This document shows positions 7,550 through 36,343 of a stretch of 64,000 nucleotides of DNA, piece by piece. The stretch lies in the NCBI GenBank assembly GCA_004193555.1, contig RPGP01000040.1:1245127-1309126 (forward strand). The letters are read 5' to 3'. This stretch comes from Desulfobacteraceae bacterium Eth-SRB1 (GTDB taxonomy: Bacteria; Desulfobacterota; Desulfobacteria; Desulfobacterales; ETH-SRB1). Under the pieces are notes generated by a model. That model saw nothing but the letters and a program-made list of their open reading frames with translations, did not search any database and was not told where the DNA came from. A program made the position numbers and the translations under genes. Position 1 is the first letter of the stretch, and each line of letters begins with the position of its first letter.

Positions 7550-7555
7550 AATGTG

Positions 7556-7690
7556 TAAGTTACAAGTGCCTAAAGTGAGCTAAAGCGCCTAAAGTTATGG
7601 AGTCGCTCCGCTCCGGTTGTTTTTTTCCAAATTGAGGAGCGAAGCGACATCATCATTCGATGTTGGACGTTCGATGTTCGACGTTCGTCT
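7556..7690. repeat. Chimeric hairpin-type repeat inside the dcw operon
   Basis: The murC/murG gap holds a left arm of the AAGTGCCTAAAGTGAGCTAA word family (7570-7600) and a right arm of the GATGTTCGACGTTCG word family (7655-7690). Between them are GTCGCTCCGCTCC and GGAGCGAAGCGAC (7636-7648), an imperfect inverted pair. Elsewhere in the window each word family occurs with its own inverted partner, so this copy looks like a recombinant of two elements. It leaves the flanking coding regions intact. Confidence 0.7.
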
Positions 7691-11284: not shown

Positions 11285-11444
11285 ATGAACGTCGAACATA
11301 TTAAAAGATGAACATCGAACATCGAACGTCCAACGTCCAACGTCGAATTTTGAATAAGGTATTCTGCCAATTTATAAACTGGCGGAGCGAAGCGACATCA
11401 ACATTCATCATTCGATGTTGAATGTTCGATGTTCGACGTTCATT
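11285..11444. repeat. Hairpin repeat, GAACATCGAACGTC-word family, in the dcw operon
   Basis: A perfect 15-bp inverted pair (11285-11299 and 11430-11444, ATGAACGTCGAACAT) bounds arms made of repeated GAACATCGAACGTCCAACG words. The centre carries AAGGTATTCTGCCAA (11356-11370) and GGAGCGAAGCGAC (11384-11396), shared with other repeats in the window. It fills the 209-bp (11274-11482) murD/mraY gap. A 61-codon open frame across it is a by-product of the repeated words. Confidence 0.85.
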
Positions 11445-21409: not shown

Positions 21410-23191
21410 CTATTTCACCCTTCTGAATCTCAACACAAAGACAGCGCCTTTTGGCTTGTTGTCTTCAACATATGCATATCCGCCGTAGTTTTCCATGGCT
21501 TTTTGAACGATGTGGAGGCCCATGCCGGTGTGGCCTGTGTCTCCGTGCATAAAACCCTCTTCAAAGATATTCGCCTTTATATCATCGGGGATGCCTGTCC
21601 CGTTATCTGCGATGCGCACCTCGCACATATCCCTTTTTTTGTCTGCGGTTATTGTGATTCTGTCGGCCTTCCCGTGAATGACGGCATTTCCTGCGATGTT
21701 GTCTATCACGGAAGCAAGAGAATCATCGGCCATGACCTGGCCCCTGCCTTTGATCTCGAAGTCTATAAATGGATAGTTCTTAATGGTTTCATCTATGACA
21801 TCATTTATCTTGTAAGGTTTCAGCTTGCTGTGGCGGGATATGAAGAATTCAAGCTCTCTCATCCTGTTGATAAGGCTCAGGCTCTTTTTAACGCGGTCCT
21901 CGGCTTCTTCCAGAAGCGCTTTTTCACGGGAGACCTTGTACAGGTTAAGGGAGCTTTTCATAACCACCAGGTCATTCGTCAGGTCGTGGCGGAGTATCTG
22001 GTTGATGAGGGCAAGATGCTCACGGTTGGACTTTACCTCTTCTTCAGCCTCCTTGCGTTCGGTGATGTTGCGGGCAATTCCGATTCTGCCTGTTATCTCT
22101 CCGGTGGCATCCAGAAGCGAGGACACATTCAGTTCTGTCGGCACAGTTCTTCCATCTTTGTGCTTCACTTCAATTTCATAAAGAGAGATATTTCTTCTGT
22201 CGATCCCCTTTTTGAAATGTTCGACCGTTGATTCCACATATTCAGGAACAATAATTTCCGTGAAAGGGTGTCCGATGAGGTCCTGCCAGGAATAACCTGT
22301 TAATCTTTCTACGACAGGACTGATGTAGGTAAATTTTCCATCCAGGTCTAAAACAAAAATTACATCATTTGTTGTCTCGGCAAGCGTGCGGTATTTCTTT
22401 TCGGAATCGCGCAGCGCCTTCTCTGTCTGCTTGCGCTCGGTGATATCTCGCCAGATCGTGTGAAGAATTTGATTATTTTTATCGTCAGAAATAGCGGTCA
22501 ACGACACCTCAACGGGGAAAATTTCTCCATCAGATTTCTTATGATACCATTCGAAGCGGTGACCGCCATTTTTAAAAGCTGTCTTCATCATTTCATCTGC
22601 TTTTGTAAATGACATTTTTCCGTCCGGTTGTTTTTCCGGTGATAATTCCGAAGGATGCGTATTTAATAGCTCATCTTTATTATTATAACGAAGCATTTCA
22701 ATCGCGGCTTGATTACAATCCACAAATTTCCTATTATAAATAATTAAAATAGCATCCTTTGCTTTTTCAAATAAATTTCTATACTTCTCCTCACACTCCC
22801 GCAGCTTTTTATCCATCTTATATTTGTGAAGGGCTATCTCTACGGCGGCTTGCAGCTCGATATCCTTGAAAGGCTTGAACAGGCAGCCGAAGGGCTCCGA
22901 GCGCGTGATATCTTCCAGCCCGGCATCACTGACATTGGCGGTGACGTACACAACGGGAATGTCAAAACGGGTACGGATCTGACCGGCCGCTTCCACGCCG
23001 TCCATCTCTCCCTGCAGTATGATATCCATCAGGACCAGATCAGGGCGCAGCGATTCGGCCTTTTTGACGGCATCTTCTCCCGAAGAGATAATGGCAGATA
23101 TATCGTATCCCATGGATTCCAGCTTGTGCCGCATTTCCAGGGCGATGATCCGCTCATCCTCAACGATCAGTATCTTTGGTTTTTTATCCAT
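21410..23191 (-). CDS. Receiver-PAS-PAS histidine kinase
   Basis: 593 residues, cytoplasmic, with no membrane segment. Domains in order: receiver (1-125; D56, K106), two PAS domains (about 130-255 and 265-385, each ending in a PAC motif such as GRIGIARNITERKEAEEE), an H-box LRHDLTND with His at 402, and an ATPase domain with N-box (SVIDNIAGNAVIHGKA), G1 (DNGTGIPDD) and GHTGMGLHIV. The N-terminal receiver suggests input from another kinase, perhaps those encoded just upstream. The final 200 residues are very close to those of the kinase at 25971-27767, indicating duplication. Confidence 0.9.
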   Translation of the reverse strand: MDKKPKILIVEDERIIALEMRHKLESMGYDISAIISSGEDAVKKAESLRPDLVLMDIILQGEMDGVEAAGQIRTRFDIPVVYVTANVSDAGLEDITRSEPFGCLFKPFKDIELQAAVEIALHKYKMDKKLRECEEKYRNLFEKAKDAILIIYNRKFVDCNQAAIEMLRYNNKDELLNTHPSELSPEKQPDGKMSFTKADEMMKTAFKNGGHRFEWYHKKSDGEIFPVEVSLTAISDDKNNQILHTIWRDITERKQTEKALRDSEKKYRTLAETTNDVIFVLDLDGKFTYISPVVERLTGYSWQDLIGHPFTEIIVPEYVESTVEHFKKGIDRRNISLYEIEVKHKDGRTVPTELNVSSLLDATGEITGRIGIARNITERKEAEEEVKSNREHLALINQILRHDLTNDLVVMKSSLNLYKVSREKALLEEAEDRVKKSLSLINRMRELEFFISRHSKLKPYKINDVIDETIKNYPFIDFEIKGRGQVMADDSLASVIDNIAGNAVIHGKADRITITADKKRDMCEVRIADNGTGIPDDIKANIFEEGFMHGDTGHTGMGLHIVQKAMENYGGYAYVEDNKPKGAVFVLRFRRVK

Positions 23192-25970: not shown

Positions 25971-27767
25971 TCACTTCACCATCCTGAATCTCAGCGCAAT
26001 GACGGCCCCTTTTGGCTTGTTGTCTTCAACATACGCGTAACCGCCGTAGTTTTCCATGGCCTTTTTGACTATGTGGAGACCGAGACCTGTGTGGCCTGTG
26101 TCTCCGTACATGAAGCCCTCTTCGAAGATCTTTTTCTTTATCTCATCGGGGATGCCTGTTCCATTGTCGGCGATGCGCACCTCGCACATAGCTCCTTTTT
26201 TGTCTGTGGTTATTGTGATTCTGTCGGCCTTCCCGTGAATAACGGCATTTCCTACGATATTGTCTATGACGGAGGCAAGAGAATCGTCGGCCATTACCTC
26301 GACCCTGCCTTTGACTTTAAAGCCTGTAGATGGATAGTTCTTAATGGTTTCATCTATAACATCATTTATCTTGTACGGTTTCAGCTTCCTGTGGCGGGAC
26401 ATGAAGGATTCAAGCTCCCCCATCCTGTTGATCAGTTCAATGCATTTCCCCGAATGTGAGGATATCTCTTTCAGGAATTGCGCTTCGGGAGATTTATTGT
26501 AAAGATTGATTGCGCTCTGTATGATCACGAGGTCATTCGTCAGGTCGTGGCGGAGTATCTGGTTGATGAGGGCAAGGTGCTCACGGTGGGATTTTACCTC
26601 TTCTTCCGCCTGTTTGCGGTTGGTGATGTCTCTGGCAATACTTAAAATCACCTGTTTCCCATGATAAGTTACAAAACTATATTTAACTTCCACTGGAATT
26701 GTCTTCCCATCTTTGGTGGAGTGTGTTGTTTCAAAAACCTGCATTTTATCGGTGGGCATTTGTTCGATTAAACCTTTTATCTCTCCCGCGTTTACAGATG
26801 TATCGATATCTTGAGGTCCCATAGAAAGCAATTCTTCCATAGAATAGCCTAAAACCTCAACAGCAGCATCATTTACATCGATAAAGTTCGCATTAAAATC
26901 AATGACCCAAGCTGTGTCACTCATCCCGTTAATTAACGCTCTATACTTCTCTTCGCTCTCCCGCAGCGCCGCCTCCGTTTTTTTGTGTGCGTCAATCTCT
27001 CTGTTGAGATTATCTATGGAGACTGTGCTTTTCTTCAGATCTTCCATCATACCGTCAAACGCCCTTGAAAGATGTCCGATCTCATCCTTTGCGTCTGTGC
27101 CCACCCTGTGGTCCAGGTTGCCGGCACCGATAATCCGTATACCCTTCTCCAGTCTTGTTACCGGCGCTCCGATGCTTCTGCTGATCCATAAGGAGATCGC
27201 TGAAACAAAACCGGCAAAGACTATAAACAGGATAATCGTGAACAAACCGGTTTTCCGCTGGATAGATACCAGCTTTGCCTGAATTGCCTGATTCACCAGA
27301 AAGACCCGGGAAACCATTGACTGAGACTCCACCAGCAGGTCGCCTGTCAGTTTAACTTTCAGATTAGAGAGCCCGTTTTTTTGATGCCCGCCATATTCTC
27401 TCTTTTCTCCAGGGATTGCGACCAGTTCAGCAAAAATATCTGAAAATCGTTCAAGGCTTTTGAGCGTTTTTTTCAAAGCGTCTTTTCCGCCAGAATCTTC
27501 AAAAATGTTTGCCTCTTCCGCCAGGAGCTTTGTCAGAGAATCGCGGCTTGTTTCCCACTGTATGAGCGAACGTTCTCCGGGATAGAGCAGATACTCACCT
27601 GTTACGATTCTCAGTTCAGCCATATTTCTGGTTACTCTGCCTGTTGTGATCGCTTTTCGGCCACATTCACTCATTTCCCTGTACGCGCCGAAAATAAACA
27701 GGCTAATCACGACAGATATGATCAGGGTCAAGATAATGGCGATCCGTAATCTGGTCTTGATTTTCAT
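25971..27767 (-). CDS. Membrane sensor histidine kinase (HAMP-PAS)
   Basis: 598 residues. Two membrane segments (about 8-28 and 172-194) bracket a helical periplasmic sensor region. A HAMP domain (about 195-248, RLEKGIRIIGAGNLDHRVG) and one PAS domain (about 270-390) lead to an H-box LRHDLTND (His near 407) and the ATPase domain (DNGTGIPDE). The C-terminal 200 residues match the kinase at 21410-23191 closely, but the sensor parts differ. An AGGAG site overlaps the stop codon of the truncated lipoprotein gene just upstream (13-bp gap), so the two are co-transcribed. Confidence 0.9.
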   Translation of the reverse strand: MKIKTRLRIAIILTLIISVVISLFIFGAYREMSECGRKAITTGRVTRNMAELRIVTGEYLLYPGERSLIQWETSRDSLTKLLAEEANIFEDSGGKDALKKTLKSLERFSDIFAELVAIPGEKREYGGHQKNGLSNLKVKLTGDLLVESQSMVSRVFLVNQAIQAKLVSIQRKTGLFTIILFIVFAGFVSAISLWISRSIGAPVTRLEKGIRIIGAGNLDHRVGTDAKDEIGHLSRAFDGMMEDLKKSTVSIDNLNREIDAHKKTEAALRESEEKYRALINGMSDTAWVIDFNANFIDVNDAAVEVLGYSMEELLSMGPQDIDTSVNAGEIKGLIEQMPTDKMQVFETTHSTKDGKTIPVEVKYSFVTYHGKQVILSIARDITNRKQAEEEVKSHREHLALINQILRHDLTNDLVIIQSAINLYNKSPEAQFLKEISSHSGKCIELINRMGELESFMSRHRKLKPYKINDVIDETIKNYPSTGFKVKGRVEVMADDSLASVIDNIVGNAVIHGKADRITITTDKKGAMCEVRIADNGTGIPDEIKKKIFEEGFMYGDTGHTGLGLHIVKKAMENYGGYAYVEDNKPKGAVIALRFRMVK

Positions 27768-28345: not shown

Positions 28346-29430
28346 GGGGACATCCATTTAATTATTGGTTTACCTGCTTTTTAAGGTTCAAACCCTGTTT
28401 TTCTGCAATTTTCTTTCCTCTCGAAACCGCCTGGCTTACTGTAGGTTGAGCTAAATTTACCTTTTTTGCCAACTCAACAGTTGTCATCCCAAGTTCACGC
28501 ACCCCCCAGTAACACAACAAGCTGCGGGCCTTAACTGTTTTGACATATTTACCGGCAGCCAATACATCCTTTGGCTCAATTCCCAATAGCTGTGCCACAC
28601 GTTTAATTAGCCAGTCAAAATTATAACCTTGTGCCTCAAGCTCATACTTGCGCTCTAAGTTTTCTTGAGCAGCTTTTAATACGGTTTCAACAAAATCCCC
28701 TTCACCCAATATTCGCTCATCACTTTTCATCCGGTCCCGGCGCAATGCTTTGACCGCTGACCACCCTCCGGCGCTGCGGATCAATCCTCCTCCTGTTAAA
28801 TCAGACCTTCGGCCATCTGCAATGCCTTTTTCCACATATTTACGGTAACGCCGCCGGGCCGTCGAACACTTGCTGGCATAGAATTTTAAAATGTAATCCG
28901 CGTCTTGCCAGTCACGTTTTCTTTTGCCCATCAGCACGTTATGGCCGCAATACGGATATTTATCTAAACCCTTTAGATCCTTAACAAGCCTTGCCCGTAA
29001 TGGATTTAAATGAATATAGCGAACCAACTCTAATAAATACAAATCTTCCTGGCATAAAATGGATTTATAACGATTCTGAAACAGGTGTCCGTGTCTGTGA
29101 TGACGATGGTTAAAGCTAACAGCATAACCGGTTAAAAGACGCCGCATCACTGTCGCAATCGGGGTGAGACCTGTTCGCAGTAACAAATGCAGGTGGTTTG
29201 GAATTAAGGCCCAGGCGAAACAGGGAGTGCCGGTTTCTGTTAAAACAACGCCTAACCGTTCCAGAAAATTATTCCTGTCTGGATCATCATAAAAAATCTT
29301 ACGCCGTTCGATTCCCCTTACAATAATATGATGCAGGGCGCCGGGAGCATCTATGCGGGCTTTGCGTGGCATATTATCTGAATATCATACATGAAATCGT
29401 TTGTAAACCAATAATCAAATGGGCGTCCCC
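28346..29430 (-). mobile_element. REP-type transposon with 28-bp terminal inverted repeats
   Basis: Left end 28346-28373 and right end 29403-29430 are inverted copies matching at 25 of 28 positions (they begin GGGGAC and end TTATTGGTTTAC). They enclose one transposase gene whose stop codon lies within the left repeat. No target-site duplication is obvious. The right end lies 66 bp from the 3' end of tRNA-Glu. The intact gene and well-preserved ends suggest recent arrival. Confidence 0.8.
28362..29372 (-). CDS. REP-associated tyrosine transposase (Y1/HUH family)
   Basis: 336 residues. The N-terminal Y1 transposase domain starts ARIDAPGALHHIIVRGIERR, carries the HUH motif in PNHLHLLLRTG and the HGHLFQNRYKSIL region that holds the catalytic Tyr, and ends YIHLNPLRARLVKDL. 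The C-terminal part (about 230-330) ends in a DnaA-like helix-turn-helix (GVRELGMTTVELAKKVN..TVSQAVSRGKK). Such enzymes cut single-stranded hairpin DNA and are thought to spread REP palindromes. The window is rich in hairpin repeats, so this enzyme or its relatives may act on some of them; that is inference. Confidence 0.92.
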   Translation of the reverse strand: MPRKARIDAPGALHHIIVRGIERRKIFYDDPDRNNFLERLGVVLTETGTPCFAWALIPNHLHLLLRTGLTPIATVMRRLLTGYAVSFNHRHHRHGHLFQNRYKSILCQEDLYLLELVRYIHLNPLRARLVKDLKGLDKYPYCGHNVLMGKRKRDWQDADYILKFYASKCSTARRRYRKYVEKGIADGRRSDLTGGGLIRSAGGWSAVKALRRDRMKSDERILGEGDFVETVLKAAQENLERKYELEAQGYNFDWLIKRVAQLLGIEPKDVLAAGKYVKTVKARSLLCYWGVRELGMTTVELAKKVNLAQPTVSQAVSRGKKIAEKQGLNLKKQVNQ

Positions 29431-30765: not shown

Positions 30766-30877
30766 TGACAGGATTAACAGGATATTCATGATTAAAACAT
30801 CAAGGCCATTTACTTTTCGTTTACCAACCTTGCTTGTTCACTTGAAACAGAATCTTGTTTATCCTGTTATCCCGTCA
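30766..30877. repeat. Hairpin repeat with AACAGGAT words
   Basis: 30766-30793 and 30851-30877 are imperfect inverted copies built from GACAGGATTAACAGGATA words. The loop is 57 nt. It lies 43 bp upstream of the transglycosylase start and 7 bp from the 277-bp element, so together the two repeats fill this 391-bp gap. Confidence 0.7.
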
Positions 30878-30883
30878 GATTTT

Positions 30884-31160
30884 TTTATTTAAACATAGAA
30901 AACCTGGCCCTCAGGACCAGGTCAGAGTTTTCCGGCTCTGCCTGAAGAAACGCTGCAAAAGTTTAAAGTGAACTAAAGTGCCTAAAGTGAGCTAAAGTTA
31001 AGGAATTCTATCAATTATATAAAATCAGTGGAGCGAAGCGACTCCACAACTTTAGGCACTTTAGCTCACTTTAGGCACTTATAACTTATACGGTTTTAAG
31101 TACAACAGCTCCTTTCAGGGGCAAACCAAAGCCTGGTCCTTTGGGCCAGGATTCTTTACT
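30884..31160. repeat. 277-bp inverted-repeat-ended element, copy 1
   Basis: Identical to 33865-34141 except for one visible substitution (CAGCTCC versus CAGCCCC). The ends carry CCTGGCCCTCAGGACCAGG (30903-30921) and its inverted near-copy (31132-31150, 17 of 19 matches). Inside are inverted arms of CTAAAGTGCCTAAAGTGAG words around the core AAGGAATTCT (31000) and GGAGCGAAGCGAC (31030-31042). No protein is encoded, so it is MITE-like. Its right end runs into the 3' end of the PHP gene. Confidence 0.92.
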
Positions 31161-31957
31161 TTTATGTTATCTAATGAGATTACGCCCCGTTTCCGTGCTG
31201 TAAATGTGGCTAACTGCCTGTATCCTGCTGTTAGCAACATGTTCAGAGCCCTGTCATAATGTTGTCCGACACTGGAGGGTTTGTGGGCATCTGAACCTAA
31301 GGTAACACTTATTCCTGATTTATGACATTTTTTTAGAATATTTAGAGAGGGGAAGGGTTCACCGATCGGATAGTTATATCCGCTTGTGTTGACCTCCACA
31401 GTTAGATTTTTGCTTTTTATTTTTGATAGTACTGCATCAAATTCTTTTTCAAATGAGACAGCAGGTGTTCTACCGAATTTTTTTATAAGGTCTATATGAC
31501 ATACTACATCAAAGTAATTATAATCCAGCATTTTTTCAAGCTGGGAAAAATAAAGACCGTAAACATAATCGGCATCCAGCTTGCCGTGTCTCCAGTCAGA
31601 ACTGTGCCTGACAATATCAAGGTCGCCGGGGAAATGCAGTGAGCTTCCGATGACATCAAATGAATATGTTTCTGTGATATCATGAAAAAGATCGATATGC
31701 GCCGGGGAAAAATCTATTTCAAGACCGGCTTTAACTTTAATGACATTTTTGTATTTTTGCTTTAAAACCTTTGTTGCCTGGAAATAGAAAGGAACCTCTC
31801 CCGGGGTCATTGAAAGCATTTTTCCGGATTTGTGCATGGTAAGATGATCCAGAAAACATATCTCTTTAAGGCCGACATCAATGGCTTTTTGAACGTAAGC
31901 CTCCATGCCGCCCTTAGCGTGGTTGCAAAGCCTGGTATGTATGTGATAATCGATCAT
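31115..31957 (-). CDS. PHP-domain histidinol-phosphatase-type phosphoesterase
   Basis: 280 residues. Metal-binding motifs of the PHP family are visible: DYHIHTRLCNHAKG at the start, LDHLT near 37, GLEIDF near 78, GSSLHFP, VCHIDLIKKFG and a terminal LGSDAHKP. The closest known function is hydrolysis of histidinol phosphate (HisK/HisJ type), but no other his gene is nearby, so the substrate is uncertain. The last 14 residues (VKNPGPKDQALVCP) and the stop codon lie in the 277-bp repeat, so the native C-terminus was replaced or extended when the element arrived. Confidence 0.88.
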   Translation of the reverse strand: MIDYHIHTRLCNHAKGGMEAYVQKAIDVGLKEICFLDHLTMHKSGKMLSMTPGEVPFYFQATKVLKQKYKNVIKVKAGLEIDFSPAHIDLFHDITETYSFDVIGSSLHFPGDLDIVRHSSDWRHGKLDADYVYGLYFSQLEKMLDYNYFDVVCHIDLIKKFGRTPAVSFEKEFDAVLSKIKSKNLTVEVNTSGYNYPIGEPFPSLNILKKCHKSGISVTLGSDAHKPSSVGQHYDRALNMLLTAGYRQLATFTARKRGVISLDNIKVKNPGPKDQALVCP

Positions 31958-32032
31958 TTCTTTAATTTAATAGTATAGGAATTTCCATTTTATGCTTAAT
32001 GAAATTGGTACTATAGGTATAGATGAGTAAAA

Positions 32033-32269
32033 AGTGCCTAAAGTGAGCTAAAGTATATTAAAGTGCCTAAAGTTAAGGAATGCGCCTTCGGCACTGCCAA
32101 TTTTAATTTTTTTCACCATACAACTTTGCTTACTTTGTTTCTACCTGCCGCGACGGGCACGAGCACGGCGGGTCTGAAGTTATAACCAAGCCCTGAAGAT
32201 CTATAGCACGCCGAAGGCGTACCACAACTTTAGGCATTTTAGGCACTTTAGATCACTTTAGGCACTTAT
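32033..32269. repeat. Long hairpin repeat upstream of radA
   Basis: The left arm (32033-32080) and right arm (32222-32269) are inverted arrays of CTAAAGTGCCTAAAGTGAG-like words. Just inside, GCGCCTTCGGC and GCCGAAGGCGT form a second inverted pair. The loop of about 120 nt is unlike the other copies and contains ACCTGCCGCGACGGGCACGA. It occupies half of the 475-bp gap between the PHP gene and radA. Nothing else is recognised there, and no clear radA promoter is seen. Confidence 0.8.
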
Positions 32270-32432
32270 GTCCATCATTTCTTGATTGAATCAAAATGAC
32301 ATGGTATGTGTTTTAATGTCAAACAATAACACAAACCCGTTGAGTAGAAAAAGAGATGAACGTTCATCTTTCACTTTATGCAAGCCATCGGCTATGCCGG
32401 TGGCTATTACGTCTGTCTGGGTGTTTTAAATA

Positions 32433-33800
32433 ATGAAAAAGAATTCAAAACCGGTTTTTTGCTGCCAGTCGTGTGGCTATCAAACTCCTAAATGGATGGG
32501 AAAATGTCCTGACTGCGGGCAGTGGGATACATTTGTTGAAGAGACCCGGACATTAAGATCTGACCATGGAACCACGCATAGCCTGTTATCTCATCAAACA
32601 GAACCTGTTCCCATAGATTCTATTGAATTTGATGATGAATATCGTCTTTCAACCGGCATTCAGGAATTTGACAGGGTTCTTGGTGGAGGACTTGTTCCAG
32701 GGACACTTGTTTTGATAGGCGGAGATCCCGGAATCGGCAAATCCACACTTATGCTGCAGGCTTTATACGGCCTGGCAAACTCAGGTTCTAAAGTGCTTTA
32801 TGTTTCCGGTGAGGAATCCGTCAGGCAGATAAGGATACGCAGCGAAAGACTGTCCGCGGTTTCGCATGATTTAATGATAGTGTCTGAGATAGACATAGAA
32901 TCGGTCATTTCGATGGTTAAATCTACCAGGCCGGATGTTCTTGTAATAGATTCGATTCAGACCATGTTCAGCTCTGATCTTACTTCTGCTCCCGGCAGTG
33001 TCAGTCAGGTTCGGGAATCAGCGGTAAGGATTATGCTCATGGCCAAAAAGACAGGCATTCCTACATTTCTTGTGGGCCATGTTACAAAGGATGGAGCAAT
33101 CGCCGGGCCAAGGCTTCTGGAGCATATGGTTGATACGGTTCTCTATTTTGAAGGTGATCGGAATCATGTGTTTAGAATTTTGCGTACCGTGAAAAACAGA
33201 TTTGGATCAACCAATGAAATCGGTGTGTTTGAAATGAATGAAAGAGGTCTGGAGGAGGTCGCAAATCCTTCGGCGGTATTTCTTTCCGAACGTCCTGAAA
33301 ACGCTCCGGGATCGGTTGTTACATCCAGCATGGAAGGCACAAGGCCTATTCTCGTTGAGCTTCAGGCCCTTGCCGGTAGTACAAGTTTTGGGAATCCACG
33401 GAGAACCATTCTTGGTCTTGACAGCAACAGGGTAGCATTGCTTGTGGCGGTGATAGAAAAAAAACTGGGGATGCATTTAATGGGGCATGATATTTTTATG
33501 AATGTTGCAGGAGGTGTAAAGGTTGATGAGCCGGCGATTGATCTGGCGATAGTTTCCGCTGTAACATCAAGTTTTTTAGACAAATCAATTCAGGACGGCA
33601 CACTTGTCCTTGGCGAGGTCGGGCTTGCCGGCGAGGTCAGGGCTATAGGTCGTGTGGAAATCAGGGTTGCTGAAGCAAAAAAAATGGGTTTTAAAAGATG
33701 CCTTGTGCCGGACAGCAATTTGAAACGGATGAGCGGGATAAAGGGAATAGAACTCATTGGAATAAAAAGGGTGTCAGAGGCTGTTGAAGCATTGTTTTAG
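32433..33800 (+). CDS. radA: DNA repair protein RadA (Sms)
   Basis: 455 residues. RadA is a hexameric RecA-like helicase that promotes branch migration during recombination repair. It has a four-Cys zinc finger (C11, C14, C25, C28), Walker A GGDPGIGKST at 96-105, the RadA-specific KNRFGSTNEIG and a C-terminal Lon-like domain (about 290-455). Upstream is a long repeat, and there is no strong Shine-Dalgarno before ATG 32433. It stands alone; the next gene on this strand is rlmE, 508 bp away. Confidence 0.97.
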   Translation: MKKNSKPVFCCQSCGYQTPKWMGKCPDCGQWDTFVEETRTLRSDHGTTHSLLSHQTEPVPIDSIEFDDEYRLSTGIQEFDRVLGGGLVPGTLVLIGGDPGIGKSTLMLQALYGLANSGSKVLYVSGEESVRQIRIRSERLSAVSHDLMIVSEIDIESVISMVKSTRPDVLVIDSIQTMFSSDLTSAPGSVSQVRESAVRIMLMAKKTGIPTFLVGHVTKDGAIAGPRLLEHMVDTVLYFEGDRNHVFRILRTVKNRFGSTNEIGVFEMNERGLEEVANPSAVFLSERPENAPGSVVTSSMEGTRPILVELQALAGSTSFGNPRRTILGLDSNRVALLVAVIEKKLGMHLMGHDIFMNVAGGVKVDEPAIDLAIVSAVTSSFLDKSIQDGTLVLGEVGLAGEVRAIGRVEIRVAEAKKMGFKRCLVPDSNLKRMSGIKGIELIGIKRVSEAVEALF

Positions 33801-33864
33801 CCACAGACCCACACGGACAGACACAGACAAAAAAACAACAGCCATTAGGGCAAAACAGATACCA

Positions 33865-34141
33865 TTTATTTAAACATAGAAAACCTGGCCCTCAGGACCA
33901 GGTCAGAGTTTTCCGGCTCTGCCTGAAGAAACGCTGCAAAAGTTTAAAGTGAACTAAAGTGCCTAAAGTGAGCTAAAGTTAAGGAATTCTATCAATTATA
34001 TAAAATCAGTGGAGCGAAGCGACTCCACAACTTTAGGCACTTTAGCTCACTTTAGGCACTTATAACTTATACGGTTTTAAGTACAACAGCCCCTTTCAGG
34101 GGCAAACCAAAGCCTGGTCCTTTGGGCCAGGATTCTTTACT
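33865..34141. repeat. 277-bp inverted-repeat-ended element, copy 2
   Basis: Same orientation as copy 1 at 30884-31160, offset 2981 bp, with one visible substitution. It lies in the radA/rlmE gap, inside no gene. The two direct copies enclose the PHP gene and radA. The remaining part of this 508-bp gap (34142-34308) shows no feature except a short Shine-Dalgarno-poor leader for rlmE. Confidence 0.92.
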
Positions 34142-34308
34142 GTCGGCGAATATGATTCTCAATAGTGTTTTGATATATATAGTCTCCGGTGGATTGAGGC
34201 TTTATGTTTGCCGTCCTCTCAACGGCAAACATAAATTAGCTTTTCTCTGCGTTCTTAGCGGCTTTGCGGTGAAAAATAATATTAAGCAACAGCTATATGG
34301 CAGCTTGA

Positions 34309-35804: not shown

Positions 35805-36054
35805 TGACGCGGTGTTTCAGCGTCCGCCGCAATAATTAATACCGCACGTTCCAAAAAGGCATGATATCAAAGCAGTGCAGTTTGCACAAGGATAGGAATT
35901 TGCTTTTATTGGAGCAAGATATTGCAAAAAAACGGGTTGTGTGTCAAGCGGCAATGTTACTTTTATGTCATGGAAGGTTGCGGAATAATACCTATATTTT
36001 TACTTGACAAACAGGACATTGATTCTACATATATAAAACACATATTTCATAGTA
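35805..36054. other. Gap upstream of yebC, with a possible promoter
   Basis: TTGACA (36004-36009) with TACATA 16 bp downstream could serve as the yebC promoter. If so, the following long hairpin (36055-36320) would be in the leader RNA. The rest of the stretch shows nothing I recognise. Confidence 0.35.
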
Positions 36055-36320
36055 ACTCAAGTTTCGCATCCTTTAATTGATCGAAAGCGTTAGACGGTAA
36101 GGGCTAAAAATAAATTATTAAAGCGAAATATACTGCCTGTGGCTTTTAAGGATTAAGGTGTAAGGGGTAAGGATTAATCCTTTAATCCTTAATCCTAACT
36201 GTGATGTAAGTTGCACAGGGTGCTGGTTACAAAATATTAGTAAATGATTTCGCTGTAAAAATGTTATTTTTAACCCTTACCGTCTTGACATGGATAGAAA
36301 TCAAGGGTGCGAAATTTGAG
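36055..36320. repeat. 266-bp hairpin element immediately before yebC
   Basis: The outer arms (36055-36075 against 36300-36320) are imperfect. The inner arms 36093-36113 and 36264-36284 (GACGGTAAGGGCTAAAAATA) match at 20 of 21 positions. The middle has AAGGATTAAGG-type words and their inverted partners (36148-36195). The element ends 23 bp before the yebC start codon. Confidence 0.8.
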
Positions 36321-36343
36321 ATAGTAAGAAACAGGAGGATGAT

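Follow-up and report, generated by a model that had tools for sequence, protein, structure and literature searches.

A 271-bp repeat with IS200-type ends in a Desulfobacteraceae genome, a probable transposase-less derivative of a resident insertion sequence

In the 64,000-nucleotide stretch of Desulfobacteraceae bacterium Eth-SRB1 DNA analysed here (the window), a preliminary description made from the sequence reported that a PHP-family gene and radA are flanked by two nearly identical direct copies of a 277-bp sequence. What kind of repeat is this, and how did two copies come to lie so close together?

Extent, copy number and anatomy of the repeat

Both copies exist as described (30884-31160 and 33865-34141, both on the + strand), and they share 276 of 277 bases, the sole difference being a T at 31110 and a C at 34091. 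The search for further copies that the description had proposed was carried out over the whole genome (3.34 Mb) and returned 12 copies located on three contigs, 11 of them at no less than 97% identity and one at 89%. As the flanks of each of these 12 copies are unrelated, the sequence is a real dispersed repeat and not a local duplication; its occurrence is far beyond chance. When the 12 copies were aligned together with their flanks, agreement ran from TTTAT at the left to TTTAC at the right. Of the 277 bp, 271 make up the element proper; the others are the target TTTAT (5 bp) and a single flanking T. No ORF of at least 100 aa is contained in the 271-bp element, which is too short to encode a transposase. 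Its parts are the following:

30884-30888, + strand: target TTTAT of copy 1 and predicted CL (left cleavage site); part of the flanking DNA and retained at the left, found left of 31/38 complete elements and present in the unoccupied sites of a related genome (G001)
30889-31159, + strand: copy 1, 271-bp non-autonomous IS200-type element
30903-30921, + strand: left-end palindrome CCTGGCCCTCAGGACCAGG; related insertion sequences (ISs) have a palindrome of other bases at the same place
30923-30940, + strand: second hairpin of the left end, CAGAG..CTCTG, which the IS conserves in part
about 30961-31087, + strand: core, an inverted word-array hairpin of TAAAGTG words (fold z -8.2), also a separately dispersed repeat
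31109-31121, + strand: inner right-end hairpin CTCCTTTCAGGGG, common to element and IS
31132-31150, + strand: right-end palindrome CCTGGTCCTTTGGGCCAGG, with CAAAG just before it
31155-31159, + strand: TTTAC, predicted right cleavage site (CR), element-borne, in 33/38 elements; unoccupied sites have TTTAT instead
33865-33869, + strand: TTTAT target of copy 2
33870-34140, + strand: copy 2, 271-bp element in the same orientation as copy 1, with left palindrome (33884-33902), core (33942-34068), right palindrome (34113-34131) and TTTAC (34136-34140)

The 19-bp imperfect inverted repeats that had been described as terminal are present (30903-30921 and 31132-31150), and each can fold by itself, as had been noted, being itself a palindrome. 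They are subterminal rather than terminal, separated by 14 bp from the left edge of the 271-bp element and by 9 bp from its right edge. The feet of the palindromes read GAAAA (left) and CAAAG (right); both resemble the AAAG guide of IS608, and, judged by eye, a putative pairing of CAAAG with TTTAC and of GAAAA with TTTAT would fit the IS608 guide scheme.

Unoccupied sites and history of the window copies

The insertion sites could be compared with those of G001, a genome of the same genus. Its contig C94 has the gene order SLT-PHP-radA-ftsJ of the window and lacks both copies. At the position of copy 1, G001 reads AATTTATTTTTATGTTG (AATTTAT/TTTTATG), that is, TTTAT followed directly by the DNA that lies to the right of TTTAC in the window. 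Unoccupied sites were also found in G001 for the insertions at C40:1311553 (TTTTTTATTTAATGACA, with TTTTTTAT joined to TTAATGACA) and at C1:353406 (GGTAGTTTTATATTTTCATGG, with TTTAT joined to ATTTTCATGG); for the latter, a further genome (G008) reads TCTAT/ATTTT. The empty sites that the preliminary description had suggested looking for were thus recovered for three insertions; target duplications, for which it had also suggested looking, were found at none of the three. All three G001 sites have a T after TTTA, where the element brings a C. It follows that insertion took place 3′ of TTTAT with no duplication, the TTTAC being supplied by the element and the TTTAT remaining outside it as flank. 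At the site of copy 2, G001 also has no element, but about 240 bp of other repeats are absent as well and the comparison is less clean.

These sites bear on the possibility that the repeat is a miniature element (MITE) of a DDE transposase, one that is bounded by 19-bp terminal inverted repeats and duplicates a 4-bp target, TTTA, on insertion. Such an element could be expected from the imperfect 19-bp inverted repeats and from the TTTA found at both edges. Nevertheless, duplication of TTTA predicts a C after TTTA, whereas the three unoccupied sites show a T, which rules this duplication out; conserved sequence extends 14 to 19 bp past the repeats on the left, and the matching ends belong to an IS of the Y1/HUH type (see below). 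We consider a DDE-type MITE very unlikely.

The preliminary description had named an assembly error as the circumstance under which the duplication would not be real. The assembly consists of multiple contigs, and in related MAGs the repeat ends contigs. However, the window lies in a 1.33-Mb contig, the 12 copies have separate flanks and private variants, and the order SLT-PHP-radA-ftsJ across both sites is the same in G001, which makes an assembly artefact exceedingly improbable.

High identity of the two copies had been interpreted as the result of recent movement or of gene conversion. Recent movement is supported by the 12 copies, many of them near-identical, and by a G001 locus that lacks both window copies in the same gene order. 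Local segmental duplication, or conversion between the window copies, could in turn be suggested by their same orientation, their distance of 3 kb and their 99.6% identity, as well as by the three close same-orientation pairs found among the 12 copies, against about 0.12 expected. Still, the perfect match of each window copy lies far away rather than beside it (for copy 1 at C40:1126316, for copy 2 at C1:1120443), so that neither process between them is needed, and homology ends exactly at the element edges. We regard this explanation as very improbable; local hopping or conversion within the window pair was likewise rejected, since the neighbours are not nearest relatives. Conversion with distant copies could still have taken place. 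The relationships among the copies are star-shaped, with an identical pair (L003 and L004) at the centre, as would be left by a burst, and the window copies are most plausibly explained as having inserted independently during a recent burst. Recombination between them could in principle delete or amplify the intervening segment, as had been proposed.

That segment and its surroundings include these features:

31115-31957, - strand: PHP/HisJ-family histidinol-phosphatase-like gene, with its stop codon inside copy 1
32032-32267, + strand: free-standing word-array hairpin between the PHP gene and radA, absent in G001
32433-33800, + strand: radA (TIGR00416, 617 bits)

The last 14 residues of the PHP protein (VKNPGPKDQALVCP) and the stop are encoded by copy 1, and the protein ends in ..KVKNPGPKDQALVCP here versus ..KINSL in G001; copy 1 inserted into the final codons of this gene. 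Immediately to the left of copy 1, 117 bp (30767-30883) form a further repeat with arms ACAGGATTAACAGGAT and ATCCTGTTATCCCGTC that is missing at the G001 site, and the radA-ftsJ gap includes word-like repeats at 33803-33864 and 34234-34262 (CCACAGACCCACACGGACAGACACAGAC; TTCTCTGCGTTCTTAGCGGCTTTGCGG) that are not in G001. Repeat insertions which the close relative lacks have shaped the gaps next to the PHP gene and radA. Elsewhere in the window, a long hairpin with arms TCAAGTTTCGCAYCCTTTAATT.. occupies 36045-36331 (similar ones occur at L226, L231, L234 and L249), and a 300-bp direct repeat of 86% identity (21414-21713 and 25975-26274) lies inside ORFs 21410-23191 and 25971-27767, which are probably paralogous genes.

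With respect to the genomic context of insertion, four insertion sites follow terminator-like hairpins, of which a scan scored two and two were seen by eye, against about 1% of background TTTAT sites, a background that includes coding DNA; for this reason, a preference for terminator T-tracts is not claimed. Replication-strand bias, with IS200/IS605 elements oriented towards the lagging-strand template, was also examined through GC skew, which in the sampled contigs tracks gene orientation.

Relation to a resident IS200 insertion sequence and to elements of other genomes

The genome yields 14 matches to Y1 transposases. One of these matches (185406-185765 of contig C29) belongs to an IS (185251-185890) with an intact Y1/HUH tnpA gene of the IS200 type. 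The ends of this IS match those of the 277-bp element: its left end (185251-185295) is 84% and its right end (185841-185890) 92% identical. The 144-aa TnpA is called as IS200 by NCBIfam (NF033573, 137 bits, cut-off 55), matches the structures of IS608 TnpA (2vhg/2a6m) and ISDra2 (2xm3), and keeps the HVH and YxxxQ motifs. Directly 5′ of the intact IS stands TTTAG instead of TTTAT, and this IS may be unable to leave its site. A second IS, at C1:392515, has lost its right end; its left end is the same and follows TTTAT, and its TnpA (C1:392488) is 68% identical. Two genomes of the same family (G003 and G015) encode TnpAs of 76% and 73% identity, with left and right palindromes at the same places and changed stem bases, the right end of the G003 IS being TTTAC. 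Despite these stem changes, both palindromes are kept in the related ISs (for example CCTTGCCC/GGGCAAGG, CCTTGCTC/GAGCAAGG, CCAGCCCC/GGGGTTGG).

Movement by a RAYT (TnpA_REP) protein would represent another route, in which the repeat is a REP/REPIN-like element served by the gene at 28362-29372. This RAYT-like gene is located 1.5 kb from copy 1, and there are several in the genome. Against it, the palindromes have no GTAG/GTGG foot and the element ends match the IS200 element, not the RAYT genes; we judge this origin highly improbable. The 28362-29372 gene product is a RAYT-like Y1 protein of 336 aa with a C-terminal part weakly similar to DnaA, and other Y1 genes of the genome also have matches to the DnaA C-terminus nearby. 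At a separate locus (L039, G000:C29:316769, in the same genome), a Y1 transposase gene is cut off beside a CRISPR-like array with repeat CGGTTCATCCCCACGCCTGTGGGGAACAT.

The exact right-end pattern was found in 85 stretches of bacterial genomes. Among the records listed, nearly all are Desulfobacterales MAGs, one being labelled Desulfarculaceae and one only Deltaproteobacteria. From all loci recovered, in the genome itself and in Desulfobacterales MAGs, 38 complete elements were collected. Of these, 31 follow TTTAT and two follow TCTAT at the left, and 33 end at the right in TTTAC; the first element base is T in 36/38 and the +1 flank base is T in 27/38. Many measure about 270 bp and carry the same TAAAGTG array. 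In many related MAGs contigs end inside the element, as is expected of a multi-copy repeat. Related elements are also present in G001, where IS200 TnpA was looked for and none was found.

We are thus confident that the 277-bp repeat corresponds to a homogeneous palindrome-associated transposable element (PATE), a miniature transposase-less derivative of the resident IS200-subgroup IS (IS200/IS605 family). Direct support comes from the anatomy, the ends held in common with an intact tnpA element, the target, the lack of duplication at three sites and the lineage-specific spread. Supply of TnpA in trans, single-strand chemistry and present-day movement are what we infer, the mechanism being taken from the IS608 and ISDra2 literature. 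The Y1/HUH TnpA would act in trans, bind the subterminal palindromes of the top strand in single-stranded form and make guide-directed cuts 3′ of TTTAT (left end) and TTTAC (right end). The excised element would be a single-stranded circle, which would insert 3′ of another TTTAT with the target not being duplicated. The word-array core would travel as putative passenger DNA, itself a dispersed repeat.

The word-array core and comparison with known systems

As had been described, one repeat type is nested within another: the word-array hairpin lies inside the 277-bp repeat, occurs separately at dozens of other genome sites that lack IS200-type ends, and the same ends carry other arrays. The latter are found at L133, L134, L076 and G001:C63, and PATEs with these ends carry at least four word arrays other than TAAAGTG (TTCGATG, GAATTCAGGAGTCAG, TTCGAATTTCGG and AGACTGAAGG). 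Little or no array is present at G001:C101, G001:C19 and L105. That a word array was inserted into an older, array-free PATE is unproven, and the element at G001:C101:6143-6301 might just as well be a PATE that has lost its array by collapse.

Within 864 kb of sequence from the genome itself, 24 of 25 sites with the loop motif GGAGCGAAGCGAC adjoin TAAAGTG or TTCGATG word arrays. Four of these are chimeras, with one word family on each side, and the arm sequences are unrelated. In the window, hairpins with this loop motif are seen at 7553-7651, 11377-11399, 31030, 34011 and 56387, and elsewhere at loci L211-L250. The same 864 kb include 39 long inverted-repeat hairpins, many of them built of short words. 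The loop-motif sites suggest a hairpin class with exchangeable arms, beyond what the 277-bp element alone explains. A more tentative proposal, which we consider possible but doubtful, is that in Desulfobacterales IS200-type ends act as a mobile chassis for hairpins with the common loop GGAGCGAAGCGAC and interchangeable arms of unrelated words, the PATE spreading the hairpins and the arms being swapped. A literature search on palindromic repeats in Desulfobacteraceae found nothing relevant. In sulfate-reducing bacteria, the 277-bp element accounts for at least one clear way in which the word-array repeats, otherwise unexplained, can spread.

REPINs and REP elements with RAYT are likewise palindromic and intergenic, and a Y1 relative moves them. 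In contrast, the element described here has no GTAG/GTGG foot and its parent is a classical IS200 transposase. With IS608 and the IS200 group it shares the subterminal palindromes, the relation to a Y1/HUH TnpA and the use of a short AT-rich sequence, 3′ of which insertion occurs. IS608 prefers at +1 the base following CL, and it does with TTAC what the element does with its own TTTAC and the TTTAT left as flank (PMC5934647); both also have a base preference at +1, an AAAG on the 5′ side of the palindrome and TTAC where the cut is made. Unlike IS608, in which CL is TTAC and CR is TCAA, the element includes no tnpA, its target is TTTAT and its right end TTTAC.

PATEs were named in Haloquadratum (PMC3119063). 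As in those of H. walsbyi, near-terminal palindromes related to IS605-type transposons are present, the target is not duplicated, the element is too short for a transposase, and copies are homogeneous (>90% identical). In H. walsbyi, small mobile repeats (SMR-A) are often found inside PATEs (PMC3119063). The present element differs in its bacterial host, in its IS200-only parent and in a core that is an inverted word array of a type recurring across an order. The PATE-like element of Halanaerobium hydrogeniformans (PMC7290912) is also an ends-only IS200/IS605 derivative in a bacterium, but it is single copy, while here there are 12 copies with a foreign core. The element is a further example of the PATE kind, the less usual part being its core, a second repeat type. 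As its parent IS, its target and the signature of its right end are all identified, and unoccupied sites are available, this bacterial PATE renders trans-mobilisation directly testable.
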